A DNA stretch of 7,443 nucleotides from Neisseriales bacterium (lineage in GTDB: Bacteria > Pseudomonadota > Gammaproteobacteria > Burkholderiales > UBA11063): contig SSGY01000090.1 of NCBI GenBank assembly GCA_008017145.1, positions 1-7,443 of the forward strand, in the 5' to 3' direction. The translations under genes and the position numbers were made by a program. Under the pieces are notes generated by a model. It was not told the origin of the DNA. It made no database searches and was given only the letters and a program-made list of their open reading frames with translations. Below, in pieces: positions 1 to 7,443 of the stretch; the stretch's first letter is position 1, and the number at the start of each line of letters is the position of its first letter.

Positions 1-255
1 ACGCACCTATTTTTATAAGATTATAGACAAGTACAACATATCCATAAAAAAGGACGGCACAGGAAAATCTTATATAGACCCAAGCGAACTAGTCCGAGCT
101 ATGCCTACCGATATCATCAACAATGATTTATTATCTGCATTTATCGGGATAGATACACCAGATAACAACACAACCATACAAAACCCAACAATACAAGACA
201 CAACAAAAGACGAAGTAATAGAGCTACTAAAACAACAAGTAAAACACCTAAATGA
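1..255. repeat. Terminal redundancy, copy 1 (circular molecule)
   Basis: Bases 1-255 match 7189-7443 without any difference I can find. The repeat starts and stops in the middle of a coding sequence, and the reading frame runs smoothly from one copy into the rest of the gene. This is what a circular sequence looks like when it is read slightly past its start. The inferred unit length is 7188 bp. A true direct repeat in a linear molecule is possible but less likely. Confidence 0.93.
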
Positions 256-439
256 GCAGTTGGAAATAAGCCAAAAACAAGTATTTAGCTTATTGGATAC
301 TATAAATAAACAAACTCTACTACTCGAACACCGCCCAACACCACAAGACAACACAACCATACAAAAAACTACACCAGAATACAAGACATTTTTTGATGAA
401 TTACGCAAGAAATCTAAGAAAAAAAAGAAAGATAAATAA
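2..439 (+). CDS. HTH/coiled-coil plasmid DNA-binding protein, 3' part
   Basis: This is the C-terminal 145 codons plus stop of a gene whose ATG lies at 7139 on the circle; the complete protein is 162 residues. The N-terminal 50 residues form a small helix-turn-helix module (see the entry at 7139). A Thr/Asn/Gln/Pro-rich linker follows. A predicted coiled coil then includes ELLKQQVKHLNEQLEISQKQ and runs to a LLEHRP motif. The tail is very basic, with a run of lysines before the stop. This architecture resembles proteins annotated as plasmid replication DNA-binding protein in Moraxellaceae and related plasmids, where they often sit beside rep genes. No rep gene is present here, so its role (copy control, partition or regulation of the membrane-protein gene upstream) is inferred. 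A 19-bp direct repeat lies inside the gene (165-183 and 348-366). The family resemblance is from memory, not from a search. Confidence 0.85.
   Translation, partial: RTYFYKIIDKYNISIKKDGTGKSYIDPSELVRAMPTDIINNDLLSAFIGIDTPDNNTTIQNPTIQDTTKDEVIELLKQQVKHLNEQLEISQKQVFSLLDTINKQTLLLEHRPTPQDNTTIQKTTPEYKTFFDELRKKSKKKKKDK
165..366. repeat. 19-bp direct repeat pair inside the HTH gene
   Basis: The sequence acaacacaaccatacaaaa occurs at 165-183 and again at 348-366, exactly 183 bp (61 codons) apart and in the same frame. It encodes NTTIQ both times, once on each side of the coiled coil. The surrounding DNA is rich in A and C on the + strand. This may be an internal duplication or low-complexity drift; there are too few copies to call iterons. 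Confidence 0.6.
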
Positions 440-453: not shown

Positions 454-462
454 ACTGACAAG

Positions 463-486
463 AAAAAACCGCACCCAAAAGTGCGG
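463..486 (-). terminator. Intrinsic terminator of the small-peptide gene
   Basis: Read on the - strand, CCGCAC, a six-base TTTTGG loop and GTGCGG form a perfect 6-bp stem, followed by six Ts (463-468). It begins 8 bases after the stop codon of the 33-residue peptide gene. The + strand side has no T-run, so it acts on the - strand only. Confidence 0.8.
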
Positions 487-494
487 CGAAAAAA

Positions 495-596
495 CTACTT
501 AATCAATTTAATTAATTGAATAAGCTGATTTACTAGATTTGTTACTGCAACAATGGCGAAAATTGCAACAGTTAATAAGTCAGTTAGCTTTTTCAT
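495..596 (-). CDS. 33-residue amphipathic membrane peptide, candidate type I toxin
   Basis: The ATG at 596 is preceded by a strong Shine-Dalgarno (AAGGGGGTGATACC) and the frame ends in TAG at 495. The peptide begins MKKLTDLLTVAIFAIVAVTN and continues LVNQLIQLIKLIK. It is a single predicted helix with a hydrophobic core and lysines at both ends, much like TisB- or Ldr/Fst-class toxins in size and character; I see no direct sequence identity to them. It is transcribed alone: an extended -10 promoter at 678-686, a roughly 75-nt leader with a long stem-loop, and its own terminator at 463-486. Type I toxins act at the inner membrane and are held down by an antisense RNA that blocks translation. 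A + strand promoter at 445-453 and a terminator at 701-737 could produce such an RNA. Toxin function is inferred from architecture only; another small membrane peptide role is possible. Confidence 0.6.
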   Translation of the reverse strand: MKKLTDLLTVAIFAIVAVTNLVNQLIQLIKLIK

Positions 597-612
597 GGTA
601 TCACCCCCTTAC

Positions 613-670
613 TCGCCTCAGAGTGAGTACCAACTGCTAGAGTGCAATCAAGACAGTTGGCACTCAGGCA
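613..670 (-). promoter_or_regulatory. Structured 5' leader of the small-peptide gene
   Basis: In the - strand transcript, GAGTGCCAACTG can pair with CAGTTGGTACTC across a 17-nt loop: a 12-bp stem with one mismatch. A second, overlapping palindrome, CTCACTCTGAG, lies just before the ribosome binding site and could compete with the first. Leaders that fold and hide or expose the start site are typical of type I toxin mRNAs. Confidence 0.5.
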
Positions 671-677
671 GAGCAAG

Positions 678-686
678 ATTATATCA
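678..686 (-). promoter_or_regulatory. Extended -10 promoter of the small-peptide gene
   Basis: On the - strand TGATATAAT gives a consensus -10 with the TGn extension, about 80 bases before the peptide ATG. The expected start is near 671. No clear -35 is present, which fits an extended -10 promoter. Confidence 0.55.
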
Positions 687-700
687 TGACCGCAAAAAAT

Positions 701-737
701 GAACGGACCAGGTATAAACCTGATCCGTTCTTTTTTT
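701..737. terminator. Bidirectional terminator downstream of the coupling-protein gene
   Basis: GAACGGACCAGGT and ACCTGATCCGTTC form a 13-bp stem with one mismatch and a four-base ATAA loop (701-730). Seven Ts follow on the + strand (731-737). On the - strand the tail is ATTTTTTG. It can therefore stop both coupling-protein transcripts (- strand) and any antisense RNA crossing the small-peptide gene (+ strand). Confidence 0.85.
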
Positions 738-763: not shown

Positions 764-2635
764 CTATGAAAATCTATTTTTAAGCGCTTTTAATGGCGTC
801 TGAGGCAATTGATTCAACCCTGCGTGCACTTCTTCACCTCCACAATCAGAACGCTCTATAACGTTATTATTTACATGCACCTGAGTTAATGCTCTTGCTT
901 TATCAACCATTTGCAAAAACTCCTCTGAATCCTTGTTAAATTCGCCAGATAACAGCGGTAAATAACCGTTATAACACAACTCTAGCAACTCACCAGCAAC
1001 ATATAAAAAGTGCTCCCCAGTTCTTAATTTTGTAAGCAATTCTTTTGGATATCGAGCGTGTAACACTTTCTTTAATTTTTTTGTGCCCGTTGATTTATCT
1101 GTCAGTAATATTGATGTCTCTGTATCTTTTGTTTCTTCATGTATTATCTTAGTACCAGCATAATGCTCTTCAAATACTTCTAAAATTAAAGGGTCTCTAG
1201 TGCCATAAATGTACTCGTATGAATTATTAGACATGATAACAGATAACATTTGCTCAGAACTAAGCCCAATTTGTTTAATCTCAAGCAATGCACTTGTTTG
1301 ATACGCCGTTATTAGCTTAAAACCTTTTCCCGCCCCCTCTGTAAAGATATCTATAAAATCCTGTGAGGCATATTTCATAAACTCATCACCAATAACAGTA
1401 ACAATTTTACTAATTCGCTCTTGCGATCTTATAAATCGCAATGAGCTAATTAGTACAGATAATATCGCATTTTCGTCTTTAGTCTTAGCTTGAATGTACA
1501 AACAACCACCGCCACGAATTAAATCATCATACTTAAACCCATTTTTAGCATTAATACAAGGTTTATAACTTAATTTAGTTAATGCCGTTTGTAAGCTAGT
1601 TTGCTCTTTCTTCTTAGGGTCAAAAAATAAATCCATGTGATTAGTAACAATATCATAAATTGTTACCTCTTCAGGCGCGTTAGCTACAAACATAGCTATC
1701 TTTTGAGCTATAGCATCGTCTTGTTGAATATAGTAACTCGTAGCCATATCGTCAGTTTCTTCCAACCTAGCTAACTGCATTAAAATCTTCTTTAAAAAAT
1801 CGGCATCTTTTAATTGTAAGATATTAAACTGCGGTGGGGCAGTTAATGACAACTCTACATAATTATATGATTTACCATATTCATTAGCATACTTCCAAAG
1901 AATCGGAGCCATAACGTCATCGCCACCATCTTTAGAATCACACATAACAACAAATTCATCATAAGCTAATAATTGAACTGCTATATTTTGTATAGCTACG
2001 TTTTTACCTGTTTGGCTGCGTCCAGTACTGTTTCCGTGAGATTTTTTAATAAATGAATCATAATCGCAATATATCGGATTTCCGCTCACATCTAAAGACA
2101 TAAAAATTTTTCTATTTTTAAAATCGTAATAATCTGCGGGATTGTATTTTTTTAATTTAAGATTGTCATGATTTTTATATATTTCTTCTGTACTCGTTAA
2201 TGTCGTTAGTGGTCTATGTGTTTTACTATCTATCCATTTTGTAATTTTTCCGCTTATGTCTCTAGCTCCATGAAGAAAAAACCACGCTGTAAATCCACCA
2301 GAAAAAACCCACCATAAAAACCAATAACGCAAGTCAAAATTAAACTCTTGCCAATGTAAAAAACCAAGTACATCACAACCAAGCCAATACACAGCAATTA
2401 GTGCAGGGATGGCGCATATAAAAGCCATTAATGCACCAAATAAACCACGACCAGAAAACAACACGGCTAATACTATTGATGTAGATACGGTAACACCTAA
2501 AAAAATCCGTGTAATTCTCCACGAGTAAGGTATTACAGAACTAATAAATAAATGGTTTAGTATAGATAAAATTTTATTTTCGAATATCAACCAACCCAAA
2601 CTCAGTAGTATAAAAAAGTAAATAAACTTTTTCAT
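764..2635 (-). CDS. mobB: MobB-type type IV coupling protein (VirD4/TraD ATPase)
   Basis: This 623-residue protein is the right size for a conjugative coupling protein, which brings the relaxase-DNA complex to a type IV secretion channel. About four membrane segments occupy residues 3-18, 41-60, 66-90 and 104-122. A RecA-like ATPase follows. Its Walker A is STGRSQTGKN (G205 to N212); the usual Ser/Thr after the lysine is Asn here. A VVMCDSKDGG segment (229-238) matches the 'v-x-DxK-G' strand of TraD/VirD4. Walker B is VTVIGDEF (412-419, D417 E418), followed by GKGFKLITAYQTSAL (436-450), the family's sensor region. The C-terminal LRTGEHFLYVAG (537-548) is also typical. The C-terminal 60 residues are unrecognised. 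The start codon has only a weak GGGA site. The symbol is by analogy with CloDF13, whose MobB is a coupling protein paired with relaxase MobC. The gene lies apart from the relaxase operon, beyond a 620-bp repeat region. Confidence 0.85.
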   Translation of the reverse strand: MKKFIYFFILLSLGWLIFENKILSILNHLFISSVIPYSWRITRIFLGVTVSTSIVLAVLFSGRGLFGALMAFICAIPALIAVYWLGCDVLGFLHWQEFNFDLRYWFLWWVFSGGFTAWFFLHGARDISGKITKWIDSKTHRPLTTLTSTEEIYKNHDNLKLKKYNPADYYDFKNRKIFMSLDVSGNPIYCDYDSFIKKSHGNSTGRSQTGKNVAIQNIAVQLLAYDEFVVMCDSKDGGDDVMAPILWKYANEYGKSYNYVELSLTAPPQFNILQLKDADFLKKILMQLARLEETDDMATSYYIQQDDAIAQKIAMFVANAPEEVTIYDIVTNHMDLFFDPKKKEQTSLQTALTKLSYKPCINAKNGFKYDDLIRGGGCLYIQAKTKDENAILSVLISSLRFIRSQERISKIVTVIGDEFMKYASQDFIDIFTEGAGKGFKLITAYQTSALLEIKQIGLSSEQMLSVIMSNNSYEYIYGTRDPLILEVFEEHYAGTKIIHEETKDTETSILLTDKSTGTKKLKKVLHARYPKELLTKLRTGEHFLYVAGELLELCYNGYLPLLSGEFNKDSEEFLQMVDKARALTQVHVNNNVIERSDCGGEEVHAGLNQLPQTPLKALKNRFS

Positions 2636-2691
2636 AAATTAAATCCCATTAAAAATACAAGTTTATAATACCAACCGAGACAGTCGGGGGC

Positions 2692-2711
2692 GGGGCTTAT
2701 TTTAAAGCCCC
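2692..2711. repeat. Inverted repeat, GGGGCTT/AAGCCCC
   Basis: GGGGCTT (2692-2698) and AAGCCCC (2705-2711) form a 7-bp stem with a six-base AT-only loop. The hairpin lies between the coupling-protein gene and the CCAA hairpin array, about 60 bp upstream of the coupling-protein start. Without a T-run it is not a standard terminator. Confidence 0.6.
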
Positions 2712-2717
2712 CGAGCT

Positions 2718-2832
2718 GTTGCATACCCAAGTATGCAACCCAAAAACAAAACGCCCAAGCGTTGCAGCTTTTTGGGTCGGGTGAATAAACATAAATTTAT
2801 CGCCCAAGCGATAAAAAGACGCCCAAGCGTCT
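2718..2832. repeat. Array of four hairpins with identical CCAA loops
   Basis: Four perfect hairpins share the loop CCAA (TTGG on the - strand) but have different stems: GTTGCATAC/GTATGCAAC (2718-2739), ACGC/GCGT (2751-2762), TTTATCGC/GCGATAAA (2796-2815) and AGACGC/GCGTCT (2817-2832). The last three share the eight central bases GCCCAAGC. Different stems that keep their base pairing while the loop stays constant point to selection on the hairpin itself, as DNA or RNA. Function unknown; candidates are protein-binding DNA hairpins near an origin of transfer, or RNA-binding loops. Confidence 0.75.
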
Positions 2833-2936
2833 GCTTTATGTTTAGAGGGGTATCCCCTGCCCGCCCGCCTCTCGCCTTAATCCCCAGATTAAGCGAACGA
2901 GGCTACCCCACTCACAAGGTAATAACAAGACGATAG
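2733..2936 (+). CDS. Doubtful 67-residue frame with RGVSPA-type motif
   Basis: A + strand frame runs through the CCAA hairpins and into the left arm of the large inverted repeat. It encodes a basic protein with the segments FMFRGVSPARPPLALIP and LSERGYPTHKVITRR. The RGVSPA...RGYPT pattern recalls small Icd/Ash-like frames near the immunity region of P4-type satellite prophages, where the conserved thing may be structured RNA. There is no clear Shine-Dalgarno, and the hairpins fall in different codon phases, so nucleotide structure probably explains the open frame. The P4 resemblance is from memory. Confidence 0.25.
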   Translation: MQPKNKTPKRCSFLGRVNKHKFIAQAIKRRPSVCFMFRGVSPARPPLALIPRLSERGYPTHKVITRR

Positions 2937-3053
2937 CCCCTCAGGGCGTCATTGTCGCAGTGATTACCGTGCTCCCATTACATAATAAATAGCATAATTT
3001 ATATGGCTGGGAGTGGGGTAGCCTCGTTCGCTTGGCGAATTGGCGGGCGGGCA
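2858..3053. repeat. Large interrupted inverted repeat (cruciform-forming), candidate oriT or satellite-type RNA element
   Basis: A perfect 23-bp inverted repeat (2891-2913 and 3011-3033, reading AAGCGAACGAGGCTACCCCA on the left) is framed by a second 12-bp inverted repeat, TGCCCGCCCGCC (2858-2869) and its complement (3042-3053). The arms are offset by 21 and 8 bases. The 97-bp loop holds nested stems: GGTAAT/ATTACC (2918-2923, 2963-2968), around ACAA/TTGT and GACG...CGTC, with GCCC-CTCA-GGGC (2936-2947) at the tip. Beside it, CTCCCA/TGGGAG (2972-2977, 3008-3013) encloses ATAAAT/ATTTAT. Small hairpins also lie in the arms (2876-2893 with a CCCA loop; 3027-3039). It lies beyond the mob operon terminator, so action at the DNA level, such as an origin of transfer, is plausible but unproven. 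Confidence 0.7.
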
Positions 3054-3066
3054 ATTAAATCAACGC

Positions 3067-3119
3067 AAACCGCCCCAGTGGTTTAATATTTGTAGGGCGT
3101 TCAGCCCGTAGGCAAATAT
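3067..3119. repeat. Two further hairpins in the gene-free block
   Basis: AAACC/GGTTT (3067-3071, 3080-3084) forms a short hairpin. ATATTTG/CAAATAT (3086-3092, 3113-3119) encloses GGGC-GTTCA-GCCC (3095-3107). They continue the dense run of inverted repeats between 2692 and 3184. Confidence 0.5.
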
Positions 3120-3126
3120 GGCGTTG

Positions 3127-3184
3127 TATGTGGTGTTTATAGTGGCGCAAATTAATTGCGCTACTATACTAAATACACCACATA
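3127..3184. repeat. 58-bp near-perfect inverted repeat
   Basis: The outer arms TATGTGGTGT (3127-3136) and ACACCACATA (3175-3184) match perfectly. The inner arms TATAGTGGCGCAA (3138-3150) and TTGCGCTACTATA (3156-3168) match with a single G-T pair around a five-base ATTAA loop. It lies just beyond the terminator of the mob operon and is probably not part of that transcript. This suggests a DNA site such as a relaxase, accessory-protein or resolution site. Confidence 0.7.
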
Positions 3185-3219
3185 TTATAACACTATCAAC
3201 ACAACTATAACAAGATAAT

Positions 3220-3246
3220 AAAAAATCCCCCATGTTACAACGGGGG
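3220..3246 (-). terminator. Intrinsic terminator of the mob operon
   Basis: On the - strand, CCCCC and GGGGG (3242-3246 and 3227-3231) form a stem around a 10-base loop, followed by A and six Ts. It lies 10 bases after the stop of the last operon gene. Confidence 0.85.
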
Positions 3247-3256
3247 CTATATATTT

Positions 3257-3512: not shown

Positions 3513-4514
3513 TTATTTTGCTTTTATTGATGTATCTGCACCATTACTATTACTATTTGATGTGCTATTATTTAAGTCAATTTTTACAGATTTAGCTTGT
3601 TCTAATCCATTACTATACTCTATTTTTGAAGTATATGTTTGTCCAGATAAATTCCCAGAACCAAACCAAGTGTCATTATTTTTATACCAAACTGTTCCAG
3701 AATTATTACAAGTAATAGAGCTATCATCAACTTGAAATTGACGACCACTAACACCTGTTAAATTAGCTATATAATGTGCAGAATTAACAATTTTACTATG
3801 GCTCTCAATTAATCCAAGTATCTTTTCTGCACTAATACTAAAAAATGCTTGTTGAATAAATTTAATTGCAGAATCTTCATCTTTAAACGTTTTATTAATC
3901 ATCTGTTCTGCAATAATAGTTTCAATATCATTAGCTAATAACACCACTTGATAATTTGCTGCCATTTCTGCACCCCTATCACCACCATACCAACCTATAC
4001 AAATAGAATTAGCCTCTTTAATAGCCTTTATTGTAGAATAGAAAATGACAAATTTAGCCATATTGTTAAAATCTTTTTTCTGCATATCATTTAGATAATT
4101 AGCATACATATTTGATAAGATTACTGCATCATTTTTATTTAAAGATTCCATTTGATGATAATAATTACTTTCTCCACTTTCATTATGAATAAATGCATTA
4201 TAATCGCCCATTACTGCACCTCTTATTTGCTCACTTTCAAATATTTTATTTAGAAAAAAATCGCCAGTTTTCGAAGCAATATCTGCCTGACTCGTAAATT
4301 TATCTACATTCATTTTTTGAAATGCTGTTGCAATAATAGTAGCTGTTTTTACTTCTTTAATTGTAACATCTTTTCTACCAATAAAAAGACTTTTAACTTT
4401 TGATATAGTTGTATTATCTGTATATAAATCTTCATTATTATTTGAAGTACTAGCACCACTACAACCAGATAAAACAACACAACAACCAAGTAACATACAC
4501 AAAATTTTATTCAT
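3513..4514 (-). CDS. 333-residue outer-membrane-type lipoprotein of unknown function
   Basis: The ATG at 4514 is chosen over the TTG one codon upstream because GGAGG sits 7 bases before the ATG and only 4 before the TTG. The start, MNKILCMLLGCCVVLSGCSG, is a textbook lipoprotein signal: lipobox LSGC with Cys18 as the lipidated residue, and Ser at +2, which predicts sorting to the outer membrane. The mature protein is mostly helical up to about residue 245 (a Tyr/Asn-rich middle with IGWYGGDRGAEMAANYQ). A Gly/Ser/Asn-rich region likely forms beta structure (from about 250, with GTVWYKNNDTWFGSGNLSG), and the tail is Ser/Asn-rich. I do not recognise the family. Lying between the relaxase and a small DNA-binding protein, it could be an entry-exclusion or mating-contact factor. 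That role is inferred from position only. Confidence 0.85.
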   Translation of the reverse strand: MNKILCMLLGCCVVLSGCSGASTSNNNEDLYTDNTTISKVKSLFIGRKDVTIKEVKTATIIATAFQKMNVDKFTSQADIASKTGDFFLNKIFESEQIRGAVMGDYNAFIHNESGESNYYHQMESLNKNDAVILSNMYANYLNDMQKKDFNNMAKFVIFYSTIKAIKEANSICIGWYGGDRGAEMAANYQVVLLANDIETIIAEQMINKTFKDEDSAIKFIQQAFFSISAEKILGLIESHSKIVNSAHYIANLTGVSGRQFQVDDSSITCNNSGTVWYKNNDTWFGSGNLSGQTYTSKIEYSNGLEQAKSVKIDLNNSTSNSNSNGADTSIKAK

Positions 4515-4528
4515 CAAATAACCTCCAT

Positions 4529-5844: not shown

Positions 5845-5859
5845 TATTGTACCTCAAAA

Positions 5860-5891
5860 CAACTATAGACGCAACTATAAAAGCCACGTAA
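5860..5891 (-). promoter_or_regulatory. mobC promoter with 12-bp-spaced direct repeat
   Basis: On the - strand a plausible -35 (TTACGT, 5891-5886) and -10 (TATAGT, 5867-5862) are 18 bp apart, ending 18 bp before the mobC ATG. The eight bases TATAGTTG occur twice, 12 bp apart (5860-5867 and 5872-5879), and one copy covers the -10. Such a tandem repeat over a promoter could be an operator for an autoregulator of the operon. Confidence 0.45.
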
Positions 5892-5930
5892 GAGAGAATT
5901 ATTAATACAATAGTATATAACACTGTGGGG

Positions 5931-6045
5931 ACGTGTTGGAATCCGTAGCGGGCGCAACCCTGTGAATTTTCGCTAACGCTCACCGCAGAATAAGCCATTC
6001 GGTGATTGTGGACAGCTAACGGCTAAAGCCTACCTGACCACAAAG
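5931..6045 (-). ncRNA. Candidate antisense RNAI (approximate ends)
   Basis: The region upstream of the conserved RNAII blocks can fold into three hairpins, as expected of ColE1 RNAI: TTGTGG/CCACAA with CAG/CTG and GGCT/AGCC (6006-6043), CACC/GGTG with GAAT/ATTC (5981-6004), and TAGCG/CGCTA (5946-5975). In ColE1 the antisense RNA from this region pairs with RNAII and limits copy number. I could not assign its promoter or terminator with confidence. Confidence 0.5.
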
Positions 6046-6134
6046 CACCAAACAGCTTATTTCCGCTAATCCTACAGGTTGCTGGGTTAACACAGAGACA
6101 CGTAATAATAAAGGTTGGACTAAGACATAGGACA

Positions 6135-6220
6135 GCGGGCAAGCCCGCAAACAATAACGCCCACCGATGGGCGTAGTATAGCGGTAAAGCCTACTGGGAT
6201 GCGGGCGGGGCTGCATCCCA
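6135..6220 (+). other. RNAII 3' structural elements
   Basis: Three strong hairpins lie in tandem: GCGGGC-AA-GCCCGC (6135-6148), ACGCCCA-CCGA-TGGGCGT (6157-6174) and TGGGATGC/GCATCCCA around the loop GGGCGGGGCT (6195-6220). In ColE1 a G-rich loop at this position pairs with the C-rich template strand to make the persistent RNA-DNA hybrid; the last hairpin matches that role. Confidence 0.7.
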
Positions 6221-6239
6221 GAGGTAAAGCAGTCCCTTA

Positions 6240-6275
6240 CCCATACTATAATAAAGCATGAGTTCGGTATCCAAT
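6240..6275 (+). other. Origin of vegetative replication (approximate)
   Basis: By alignment from memory with pMB1/ColE1, the RNA-to-DNA switch should fall just around the ACC-ATACTATA and AGCATGAG segment, about 190 bases after CTAATCCT. Leading-strand synthesis would proceed toward higher coordinates. The exact base cannot be placed from the sequence alone. Confidence 0.6.
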
Positions 6276-6282
6276 CCTCCAA

Positions 6283-6550
6283 GAATAACAGCCTTAATTT
6301 GAGTTATCCCGTCGGTACACAACAATTAAATCTAACAGCGTTTTACAGCTCACTGTTACACTGTCCGCCTCTGCTTGTGTCTAACTAGCTATCAGTCTAC
6401 TTTCACGCTGTAAACGCTATAAAATTCACTCTGATAATTCGCAACCGTGTGCATGGGTAGCTTTCGGACTTTCCTCATTGTAGCTACATTTACAGAGCTT
6501 TCCCAATCGGGGATAATATGCAACCCTCAGAACTGCACAAAATCGACGCA
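6283..6550. other. Gene-free stretch downstream of the origin
   Basis: No convincing gene is visible. AGCGTTTTACAGC (6337-6349) and GCTGTAAACGCT (6407-6418) form a 12-of-13 inverted repeat 57 bp apart. GTAGCT/AGCTAC (6457-6462, 6482-6487) forms a second one. In ColE1-type plasmids this location often carries a primosome assembly or single-strand initiation site, which these structures could be; I saw no exact known motif. Confidence 0.4.
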
Positions 6551-6553
6551 TAA

Positions 6554-6594
6554 AAAAAGCCCGTCTGGTTTATCCAACTCTCGACAGGCTTTTT
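6554..6594. terminator. Bidirectional terminator after the replicon
   Basis: AAAAAGCCcGTC (6554-6565) pairs with GACaGGCTTTTT (6583-6594), with one mismatch and a 17-base loop. The A-run on the left and T-run on the right make it usable in both directions. It would stop transcripts that read through the origin. Confidence 0.7.
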
Positions 6595-6658
6595 ACATAT
6601 TCGGTCTAGTTGCTATTTTGTATTTTACAAAAAAGCATACTTTTTTTATATATTTCTT

Positions 6659-6681
6659 CACATACGTTTAGCAAGTATGTG
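6659..6681. repeat. Inverted repeat CACATAC/GTATGTG
   Basis: Perfect 7-bp arms at 6659-6665 and 6675-6681 are separated by 9 bases, and GTTAAAAT follows. The spacing of one helical turn or more suggests a protein-binding site or a degenerate Xer-type site; the match to dif/cer consensus is poor. Confidence 0.35.
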
Positions 6682-6769
6682 TTAAAATAACTCCTGTATC
6701 AGCTAGTTTGAGTAGTTGTTACCAAGGTTATTAGTCTGCAAACTGAATAACCAAAACAGATTATAACAT

Positions 6770-6795
6770 AACCCGCTTTTAATAGGCGGGTTTTG
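6770..6795 (+). terminator. Intrinsic terminator, + strand
   Basis: AACCCGC (6770-6776) and GCGGGTT (6786-6792) form a 7-bp stem around a 9-base loop, ending in four Ts and a G. It isolates the small membrane-protein gene from upstream transcription. Confidence 0.65.
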
Positions 6796-6807
6796 TCATT
6801 ATTTTAG

Positions 6808-6867
6808 TTCACTATTATGGGAGTAATAGTGAATTATCCTATTACTTTTCGCTTTATAGGCTATAAA
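6808..6867 (+). promoter_or_regulatory. Competing hairpins or operators before the small membrane-protein gene
   Basis: TTCACTATTA (6808-6817) and TAATAGTGAA (6824-6833) form a perfect 10-bp stem with a TGGGAG loop. The middle arm can instead pair with CTATTACT (6839-6846) through AGTAATAG (6822-6829), so the two folds exclude each other. A third palindrome, TTTATAG-g-CTATAAA (6853-6867), ends one base before the ATG at 6869. Either an attenuator-like leader or tandem operators for the HTH protein would fit. Confidence 0.5.
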
Positions 6868-6868
6868 A

Positions 6869-7090
6869 ATGTTGTGGTTCTTATATGGTTTTTTAGCTAT
6901 TTGGGTTGTTTTATTTTTATCAAAAAACAATAAAAAAAATAACCACCATAAAAACTTTATGCAAAACCCTGAGACTAATACTCATAGCATAGACACGCCA
7001 ATACCAAACATAAACCCAACAACACTCGCACCAATGTTAGAGAACTCAAACATTGATGTTACTGGTAAAGTTTACGGTCAAATAGATTAA
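6869..7090 (+). CDS. Small membrane protein (73 residues)
   Basis: The ATG at 6869 has a weak AGG site 8 bases upstream, inside a palindrome. Residues 1-18 (MLWFLYGFLAIWVVLFLS) form a single uncharged membrane segment. A basic stretch KNNKKNNHHKN follows, predicting a cytoplasmic C-terminus by the positive-inside rule. The remaining 45 residues are polar and rich in Asn, Thr and Pro, ending VTGKVYGQID. I do not recognise the family. It precedes the HTH gene by 48 bp on the same strand and its leader holds several palindromes, so the pair may be co-regulated. Possible roles are entry exclusion or a membrane tether for the plasmid DNA-binding protein; these are guesses from context. Confidence 0.65.
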   Translation: MLWFLYGFLAIWVVLFLSKNNKKNNHHKNFMQNPETNTHSIDTPIPNINPTTLAPMLENSNIDVTGKVYGQID

Positions 7091-7138: not shown

Positions 7139-7443
7139 ATGAAAAATAAACTCTCCATCACCGAAGCAGCTAAAATTTGCGGATACCAACGCACCTATTT
7201 TTATAAGATTATAGACAAGTACAACATATCCATAAAAAAGGACGGCACAGGAAAATCTTATATAGACCCAAGCGAACTAGTCCGAGCTATGCCTACCGAT
7301 ATCATCAACAATGATTTATTATCTGCATTTATCGGGATAGATACACCAGATAACAACACAACCATACAAAACCCAACAATACAAGACACAACAAAAGACG
7401 AAGTAATAGAGCTACTAAAACAACAAGTAAAACACCTAAATGA
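7139..7443 (+). CDS. HTH/coiled-coil plasmid DNA-binding protein, 5' part
   Basis: The ATG at 7139 opens a frame that continues through the end of the window into the copy at base 2, giving a 162-residue protein. The first residues, MKNKLSITEAAKICGYQRT, followed by YFYKIIDKY, look like a MerR/excisionase-type helix-turn-helix. The segment SYIDPSELVRAM completes the usual 'recognition helix, short wing, D-x-SEL' pattern of such domains. There is no strong Shine-Dalgarno before this ATG; the nearest upstream ATG (7123) is out of frame. The 30 bp just upstream hold several TAACA/TGTTA half-sites, consistent with autoregulation. The gene follows a small membrane-protein gene with a 48-bp gap and may be cotranscribed with it. 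Confidence 0.85.
   Translation, partial: MKNKLSITEAAKICGYQRTYFYKIIDKYNISIKKDGTGKSYIDPSELVRAMPTDIINNDLLSAFIGIDTPDNNTTIQNPTIQDTTKDEVIELLKQQVKHLN
7189..7443. repeat. Terminal redundancy, copy 2 (circular molecule)
   Basis: Exact copy of bases 1-255. Joining 7188 to 1 restores one uninterrupted HTH-protein gene, which supports circularity. Confidence 0.93.

Follow-up and report, generated by a model that had tools for sequence, protein, structure and literature searches.

Type I toxins are small hydrophobic peptides, typically shorter than 60 amino acids, and some type I messages fold so that the ribosome site is shut. In addiction of the hok/sok type, a plasmid-borne gene for a small membrane peptide is placed under antisense control. 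The antitoxin of a type I system is an antisense RNA with a promoter of its own (PMC12390103). Many of the toxins are small membrane helices with poorly conserved sequences, and several carry two cationic residues at the C-terminus (PMC8309996). In the AapA/IsoA system of Helicobacter the -10 box of the antitoxin was mutated with the toxin amino acids kept (PMC6733600), from which we interpret the antitoxin promoter as lying inside the open reading frame (ORF). Among the antitoxins predicted in PMC12390103, six overlap the coding sequence and the 3'UTR, three the coding sequence and the 5'UTR, and one the 3'UTR only. With so little length and conservation to go by, homology searches miss such toxins. 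The locus described here is compact and lies on a mobilizable plasmid, and it illustrates how a candidate toxin might be recognized by its signals, i.e. a 12-nt Shine-Dalgarno (SD) sequence, a paired extended -10 and a bidirectional terminator. If the module is true, it would explain the upkeep of a 7-kb plasmid in which no toxin-antitoxin family is matched.

The window, i.e. the whole stretch of DNA analysed (7,443 nucleotides), begins and ends with the same 255 bases. Because these terminal bases are identical we read it as circular, with a length of 7,188 bp, and by its sequence it is a mobilizable plasmid. A MobC-family replication-relaxation protein is encoded at 5844-5092 on the minus strand (NF041423, 94.1 bits, below the curated cut-off of 200); it has ten relatives in a large protein collection, one of them with 89% identity. 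The TraD/MobB-like coupling protein (764..2635, minus strand; SXT_TraD 41.4 bits, cut-off 366) is the same-strand upstream neighbour of the peptide gene. It is matched by 1,154 plasmid records, none over more than 80% of the length, and identity is 22-25% in the best 20 of these. On the plus strand, a gene for an HTH protein resembling rep_pAB02_ORF2 starts at 7139 and wraps around the circle to 439 (positions 1..439 being the gene end); residues 1-101 score 35.9 bits against that family (cut-off 85). The peptide locus sits between the mobilization operon and this convergent HTH gene.

At the nucleotide level, blastn of the whole window against plasmids and phages, and of 380-800 against plasmids, returned nothing at E 1e-5. 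No confirmed relative of the MobC and MobB-like proteins was found in viral contigs, while an alignment search with MobC in genome contigs yielded one weak Vibrio locus. Among the nine plasmid proteins scanned with Pfam and NCBIfam there was no match to toxin-antitoxin families or to a replication initiator, and PADLOC gave no match for seven proteins. A separate ORF of 334 amino acids at 3513-4517 has a lipoprotein-like start, with a lipobox recognized by eye; its best NCBIfam family is TrsH/TraH (E 0.024), and Pfam gives none at 0.1.

Four related plasmids carrying the HTH gene were inspected. BrnT/BrnA lies directly 3' of the gene in one of them and a DUF2442 gene about 800 bp beyond it in another, while neither is found near the HTH gene in the remaining two; DUF2442 can be a toxin-antitoxin component. 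The gene preceding the HTH gene encodes Rop in two of the four, a replication initiation protein in one and a recombinase in one, and a Klebsiella MOBC plasmid carries a ColRNAI replicon. In our plasmid, no convincing gene is seen over roughly 1 kb at 5850-6870. Given the Rop neighbours and the ColRNAI replicon of these other plasmids, this region may hold a ColE1-like, RNA-primed replicon; Rfam returns 15 matches there up to E 5, all under their gathering scores.

The intergenic region upstream of the coupling-protein gene has features of its own. Between 2718 and 2832, four consecutive hairpins (2718-2739, 2750-2763, 2796-2815 and 2817-2832) share the loop CCAA, or TTGG on the minus strand, on differing perfect stems of 9, 5, 8 and 6 bp. 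They are four of the 15 perfect tetraloop hairpins with stems of at least 5 bp in the plasmid; when 2640-3256 is shuffled 5,000 times by mononucleotide, CCAA hairpins number 0.003 on average and one at most. In the minus-strand fold AAACATAAA/TTTATGTTT closes a junction that contains the last two, and the plus-strand fold is without this junction. Rfam has no match at the cluster up to E 1, and six other loci hold one TTGG loop (L019) and no CCAA loop on stems of at least 6 bp. A constant loop on changed stems suggests selected structure, possibly part of a transfer origin or an RNA element. The same intergenic region contains a 26-nt inverted repeat (2891-2916 and 3008-3033, 96% complementary, 91 nt apart), whose sequence makes it a candidate transfer origin.

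The candidate toxin is a 33-residue membrane peptide encoded at 495..596 on the minus strand with the ATG at 596, as recognized from the ORF list, hydropathy and structure prediction. Read along the minus strand, the operon terminator (730-701) is followed by a -10 (686-678), a hairpin (666-624), the SD (611-600) and the ATG, and then by the 33-codon frame with its stop and by a terminator at 487-468. The preliminary description of the locus, made from the sequence without database searches, omitted the strand of the ORF; an absence of plus-strand RNA, which it named as evidence against the module, concerns the antisense and not the peptide message. Its account of an amphipathic membrane peptide agrees with the predictions. 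The sequence MKKLTDLLTVAIFAIVAVTNLVNQLIQLIKLIK has a hydrophobic core, with a Kyte-Doolittle maximum of 2.45 over 15 residues, followed by an amphipathic, lysine-ended C-terminal half with a moment of up to 0.68. A single-sequence model predicts a single helix from residue 2 to 32 (mean pLDDT 91.6), which adds little because lone hydrophobic peptides are often modelled as helices. With its 33 residues, hydrophobic core and predicted helix the peptide has the properties of a small hydrophobic type I toxin.

The strongest single argument that these codons form a gene is, at the sequence level, the ribosome site. The SD TAAGGGGGTGAT (600..611, minus strand; 12 nt, ending 3 nt upstream of the ATG) forms 12 contiguous pairs with the 16S tail, one of them G.U, and eight other plasmid genes have SDs of 3-6 nt at their listed starts. 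In 150 dinucleotide shuffles of the plasmid, ORFs of 15-60 amino acids with an SD of at least 8, 9 and 10 nt occur 0.19, 0.05 and 0 times per shuffle, so that no shuffled short ORF reaches 10. One other short ORF of the real plasmid has an SD of 8, namely an in-frame GTG start with 21 amino acids at the end of the MobB-like gene. The strong ribosome site that had been proposed stands out from the shuffled controls, and the gene for the 33-residue peptide is very probably real.

The gene also has transcription signals of its own, in keeping with the preliminary description. A perfect extended -10, TGATATAAT, lies at 678..686 on the minus strand, recognized by its motif with no -35 listed, and the terminator scan lists an intrinsic terminator at 468..487. 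The structured leader (624..666, minus strand) likewise stands up against shuffling (z -3.28, 0/300 shuffles; z -2.42, 5/300 with the other boundary), and the plus strand of the same segment gives z -3.41 (0/300). When the full message is folded, the SD is mostly open (0.67 unpaired), and the 12 bases past the AUG are 0.10 unpaired. If the leader hairpin loses its first arm, its second arm can fold onto the SD, which is then 0.28 unpaired; in this folding model a leader-arm switch over the SD is possible. The predicted fold also pairs the start region with the 3' end ahead of the terminator, an arrangement known from certain type I messages. Shuffles equal the energy of this long-distance interaction in 29 of 300 cases and recoded ORFs in 53 of 300, and the start region is closed at least equally well in 38 of 300 recoded versions, so the pairing does not go beyond chance.

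Opposite the peptide gene, the plus strand holds a candidate antisense promoter. The motif TGATATAAT occurs exactly twice in the plasmid, at 686-678 on the minus strand and at 445-453 on the plus strand, flanking the locus and facing inward, so the second, identical nine-base copy had been reported correctly. This plus-strand copy is set off by five bases from the stop codon of the HTH gene, and again no -35 is listed; a two-hexamer promoter scan lists neither copy, from which we take it that neither has a good -35. The shorter motif TGNTATAAT is present four times in the plasmid, where 0.99 +/- 1.03 are expected from 300 shuffles, and in local 100-nt shuffles of the relevant strand it arises in 33 of 20,000 for the plus site and 25 of 20,000 for the minus site. 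ORFs exist on the plus strand within 453-803, but none has an SD of at least 8, and so no gene is evident for the plus-strand -10. An antisense RNA from this site would run from 459 to 737 and cover the whole peptide message; its existence is plausible from the nine-base match and its position.

For the end of this RNA, a plus-strand terminator had been placed at 701-737, where the segment, its A/T tracts included, does fold at -25.0 kcal/mol, with seven T behind it. The terminator scan lists 487-468 and 730-701 on the minus strand and leaves 701-730 on the plus strand unlisted, the plus-strand stem being broken by a C-A mismatch. The preliminary description was silent on the minus-strand role of this element, which ends the mobilization operon at 730-701, and we regard it as a bidirectional terminator from the scan and the folding. 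Over its whole length the putative 459-737 RNA gives z -8.14 (0/200 shuffles), a value that includes hairpins common to the minus strand.

The probability that the locus works as an addiction module resembling type I toxin-antitoxins, its candidate toxin being an orphan, is in our estimate roughly 0.55. The layout supports this through the 12-nt SD, the paired -10s, the leader hairpin, the two-sided terminators and the helical, hydrophobic, lysine-ended peptide. The related HTH plasmids add minor support, one or two of the four having candidate toxin-antitoxin genes near that gene. Against the module stand the missing -35 at both promoters, wobble pairs that fit the minus strand, the mostly open SD of the full message and the absence of a peptide homologue in the searches made. 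Of the full layout that had been claimed, the peptide gene with its own signals has strong support and its arrangement agrees with such a module, while the antisense side is plausible from a -10 with no listed -35 and from position. In the proposed mechanism an unstable plus-strand RNA would start near 459 and end near 737, with read-through from the HTH gene as a backup source of antisense, which the preliminary description did not consider. The antisense would pair with the whole message, which would be degraded or kept untranslated. Upon plasmid loss the antisense RNA would decay first and the peptide would be made, insert into the inner membrane and depolarise or deform it; toxicity and plasmid addiction are both things that we infer. 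A more elaborate version is doubtful. It would make the locus a mirror-image, fully nested module with identical, opposed -10s, where each of the two transcripts runs through the promoter of the other. Antisense over the whole message would arise both from its own promoter and by read-through of a replication-associated HTH gene, which would couple toxin silencing to the expression of plasmid genes, and the toxin would represent a peptide family not yet described.

The wobble pairs of the locus bear on a different explanation. There are four, in the leader (661/629), the toxin terminator (480/475 and 487/468) and the operon terminator (723/708), and an extended leader stem adds a fifth (670/614). 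All four, or all five with the wide leader, form G.U pairs in the minus-strand RNA and are left unpaired on the plus strand, whose RNA has no wobble pairs of its own in the three hairpins. As every wobble pair fits the minus strand, the hairpins look shaped as minus-strand RNA, a pattern that supports the peptide message and not a structured plus-strand RNA, although an antisense that is fully complementary can do without structure. The pattern also speaks for a small membrane peptide serving mobilization or the envelope as an accessory and free of antisense control, the plus-strand -10 being a chance match. We consider such an accessory peptide rather unlikely, even though its gene follows the coupling-protein gene directly on the same strand and the plus site has no listed -35. 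A separate -10 past the operon terminator probably places the gene outside the operon, and the plus-strand -10 is an identical copy in the correct position that chance would seldom produce. Folding energies, by which the plus strand falls at least as far under its shuffles as the minus strand, were counted for neither strand because much of them stems from the shared hairpins: 464-672 gives z -5.32 on the plus and -4.90 on the minus strand (0/300 shuffles each), and the body without hairpins -2.06 (13/300) and -0.94 (52/300), respectively.

Antisense control by a toxin-antitoxin module could in principle do without the second promoter. No plus-strand terminator is listed from the HTH stop (439) to 701, and therefore the HTH message, unless ended otherwise, would also be antisense to the peptide gene. 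A toxin-like peptide might then be silenced solely by this read-through, as by a long antisense 3'UTR. That TGATATAAT stands directly behind the HTH stop, where TGNTATAAT arises in 33 of 20,000 local shuffles, argues against such an arrangement and makes it improbable. A regulatory small RNA with an incidental ORF is very improbable, for a strong hairpin, a terminator and a weak Rfam JA04 match at 533-451 (28.5 bits, E 0.58; rejected as an identity, being far under the gathering score of 81) are set against a 12-nt SD at the correct spacing from an ATG.

The orphan status of the candidate toxin is based on several searches. Using tblastn at E 10, the peptide had no match in 72,556 plasmid records or in 50,697 phage records, and phmmer against solved structures at E 10 found none. 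No Pfam or NCBIfam family was matched at E 0.1, and these collections presumably include the models of Hok, Ldr, TisB, Fst and Ibs. Genomes were sampled from the class and the order of the weak MobC-relative Vibrio locus, a choice made by that locus and not by the plasmid host. In 369 genomes of the class there was no match to the peptide at E 0.01, in a search run without a positive control, and none to the pattern TAAGGRGGTGATNNNATGAARAARYTN; 16 of 394 genomes of the order have matches at E 1, the best at E 0.068. The locus layout is absent from all seven of these 16 matches that were inspected by eye: one has an internal stop (L024), one is the start of a 265-residue frame (L025), and five have no ATG start in the frame inspected; an inverted repeat follows the match at L026. 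A match to phrog_5620 (E 0.0032, 18.4 bits) was rejected as probably composition-driven; this family finds matches in 11 of 14 control genomes at E 10, and at E 0.01 in two of the 14 (one an archaeon) and in 8 of the 369. The absence of relatives is weak evidence.

A search of viral contigs for an SD followed by MKKL gave five stretches with frames of 29, 66, 5, 26 and 34 residues, and a stricter form of the pattern retained one of them. In this phage contig (L014, 2683-2950) the same AAGGGGGTGAT ribosome site precedes a 29-residue MKKL peptide, and an inverted repeat lies behind it. It looks free-standing and shares its initial residues with the plasmid peptide. At the sequence level it is a similar-looking small peptide gene, with the likeness limited to the first residues and the signals.

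Among the open-access papers listed by narrow term searches, no type I system on small or mobilizable plasmids, or with a fully overlapping antisense, matches this one, which does not show its absence from print. Colicin release lysis peptides of MOBC plasmids such as NZ_CP036445.1 are likewise small and membrane-active, and their plasmids have the same kind of mobilization gene. Colicin lysis peptides are lipoproteins, whereas the window peptide has no cysteine and therefore no lipobox, and no colicin or immunity family was matched among the nine plasmid proteins scanned. With hok/sok the locus shares the plasmid location and the small membrane peptide, and antisense control is a candidate here; as a difference, neither Pfam nor NCBIfam has a family that the peptide matches at E 0.1.

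By its sequence the peptide fits the description of type I toxins given in the sources cited above. In the type I loci predicted for Microcystis (PMC12390103), msoT1/msoA1 among them, a small toxin is opposed by an overlapping antisense predicted from promoters and terminators, as here. The putative antisense of the plasmid spans the whole message, while none of the ten antitoxins is described, where PMC12390103 lists their overlaps, as spanning both untranslated regions; complete overlap would thus be unusual relative to that set. The plus-strand -10 lies behind the toxin terminator and outside the ORF, in contrast to the AapA/IsoA antitoxin -10, which we take to lie inside the ORF. The sole plus-strand TGNTATAAT is that at 445-453, outside the toxin ORF, though promoters of weaker types may lie within it. 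In AapA/IsoA a 5'-3' interaction shuts the full message, whereas such pairing is not beyond chance in the plasmid. Going by what these sources describe, AapA/IsoA (PMC6733600, PMC8309996) is nevertheless the nearest known system in size and style: it shares with the window peptide a length of about 30 residues, one membrane helix and cationic flanks, and with the locus a structured message, together with a cis-encoded antisense RNA that is established there and a candidate here.
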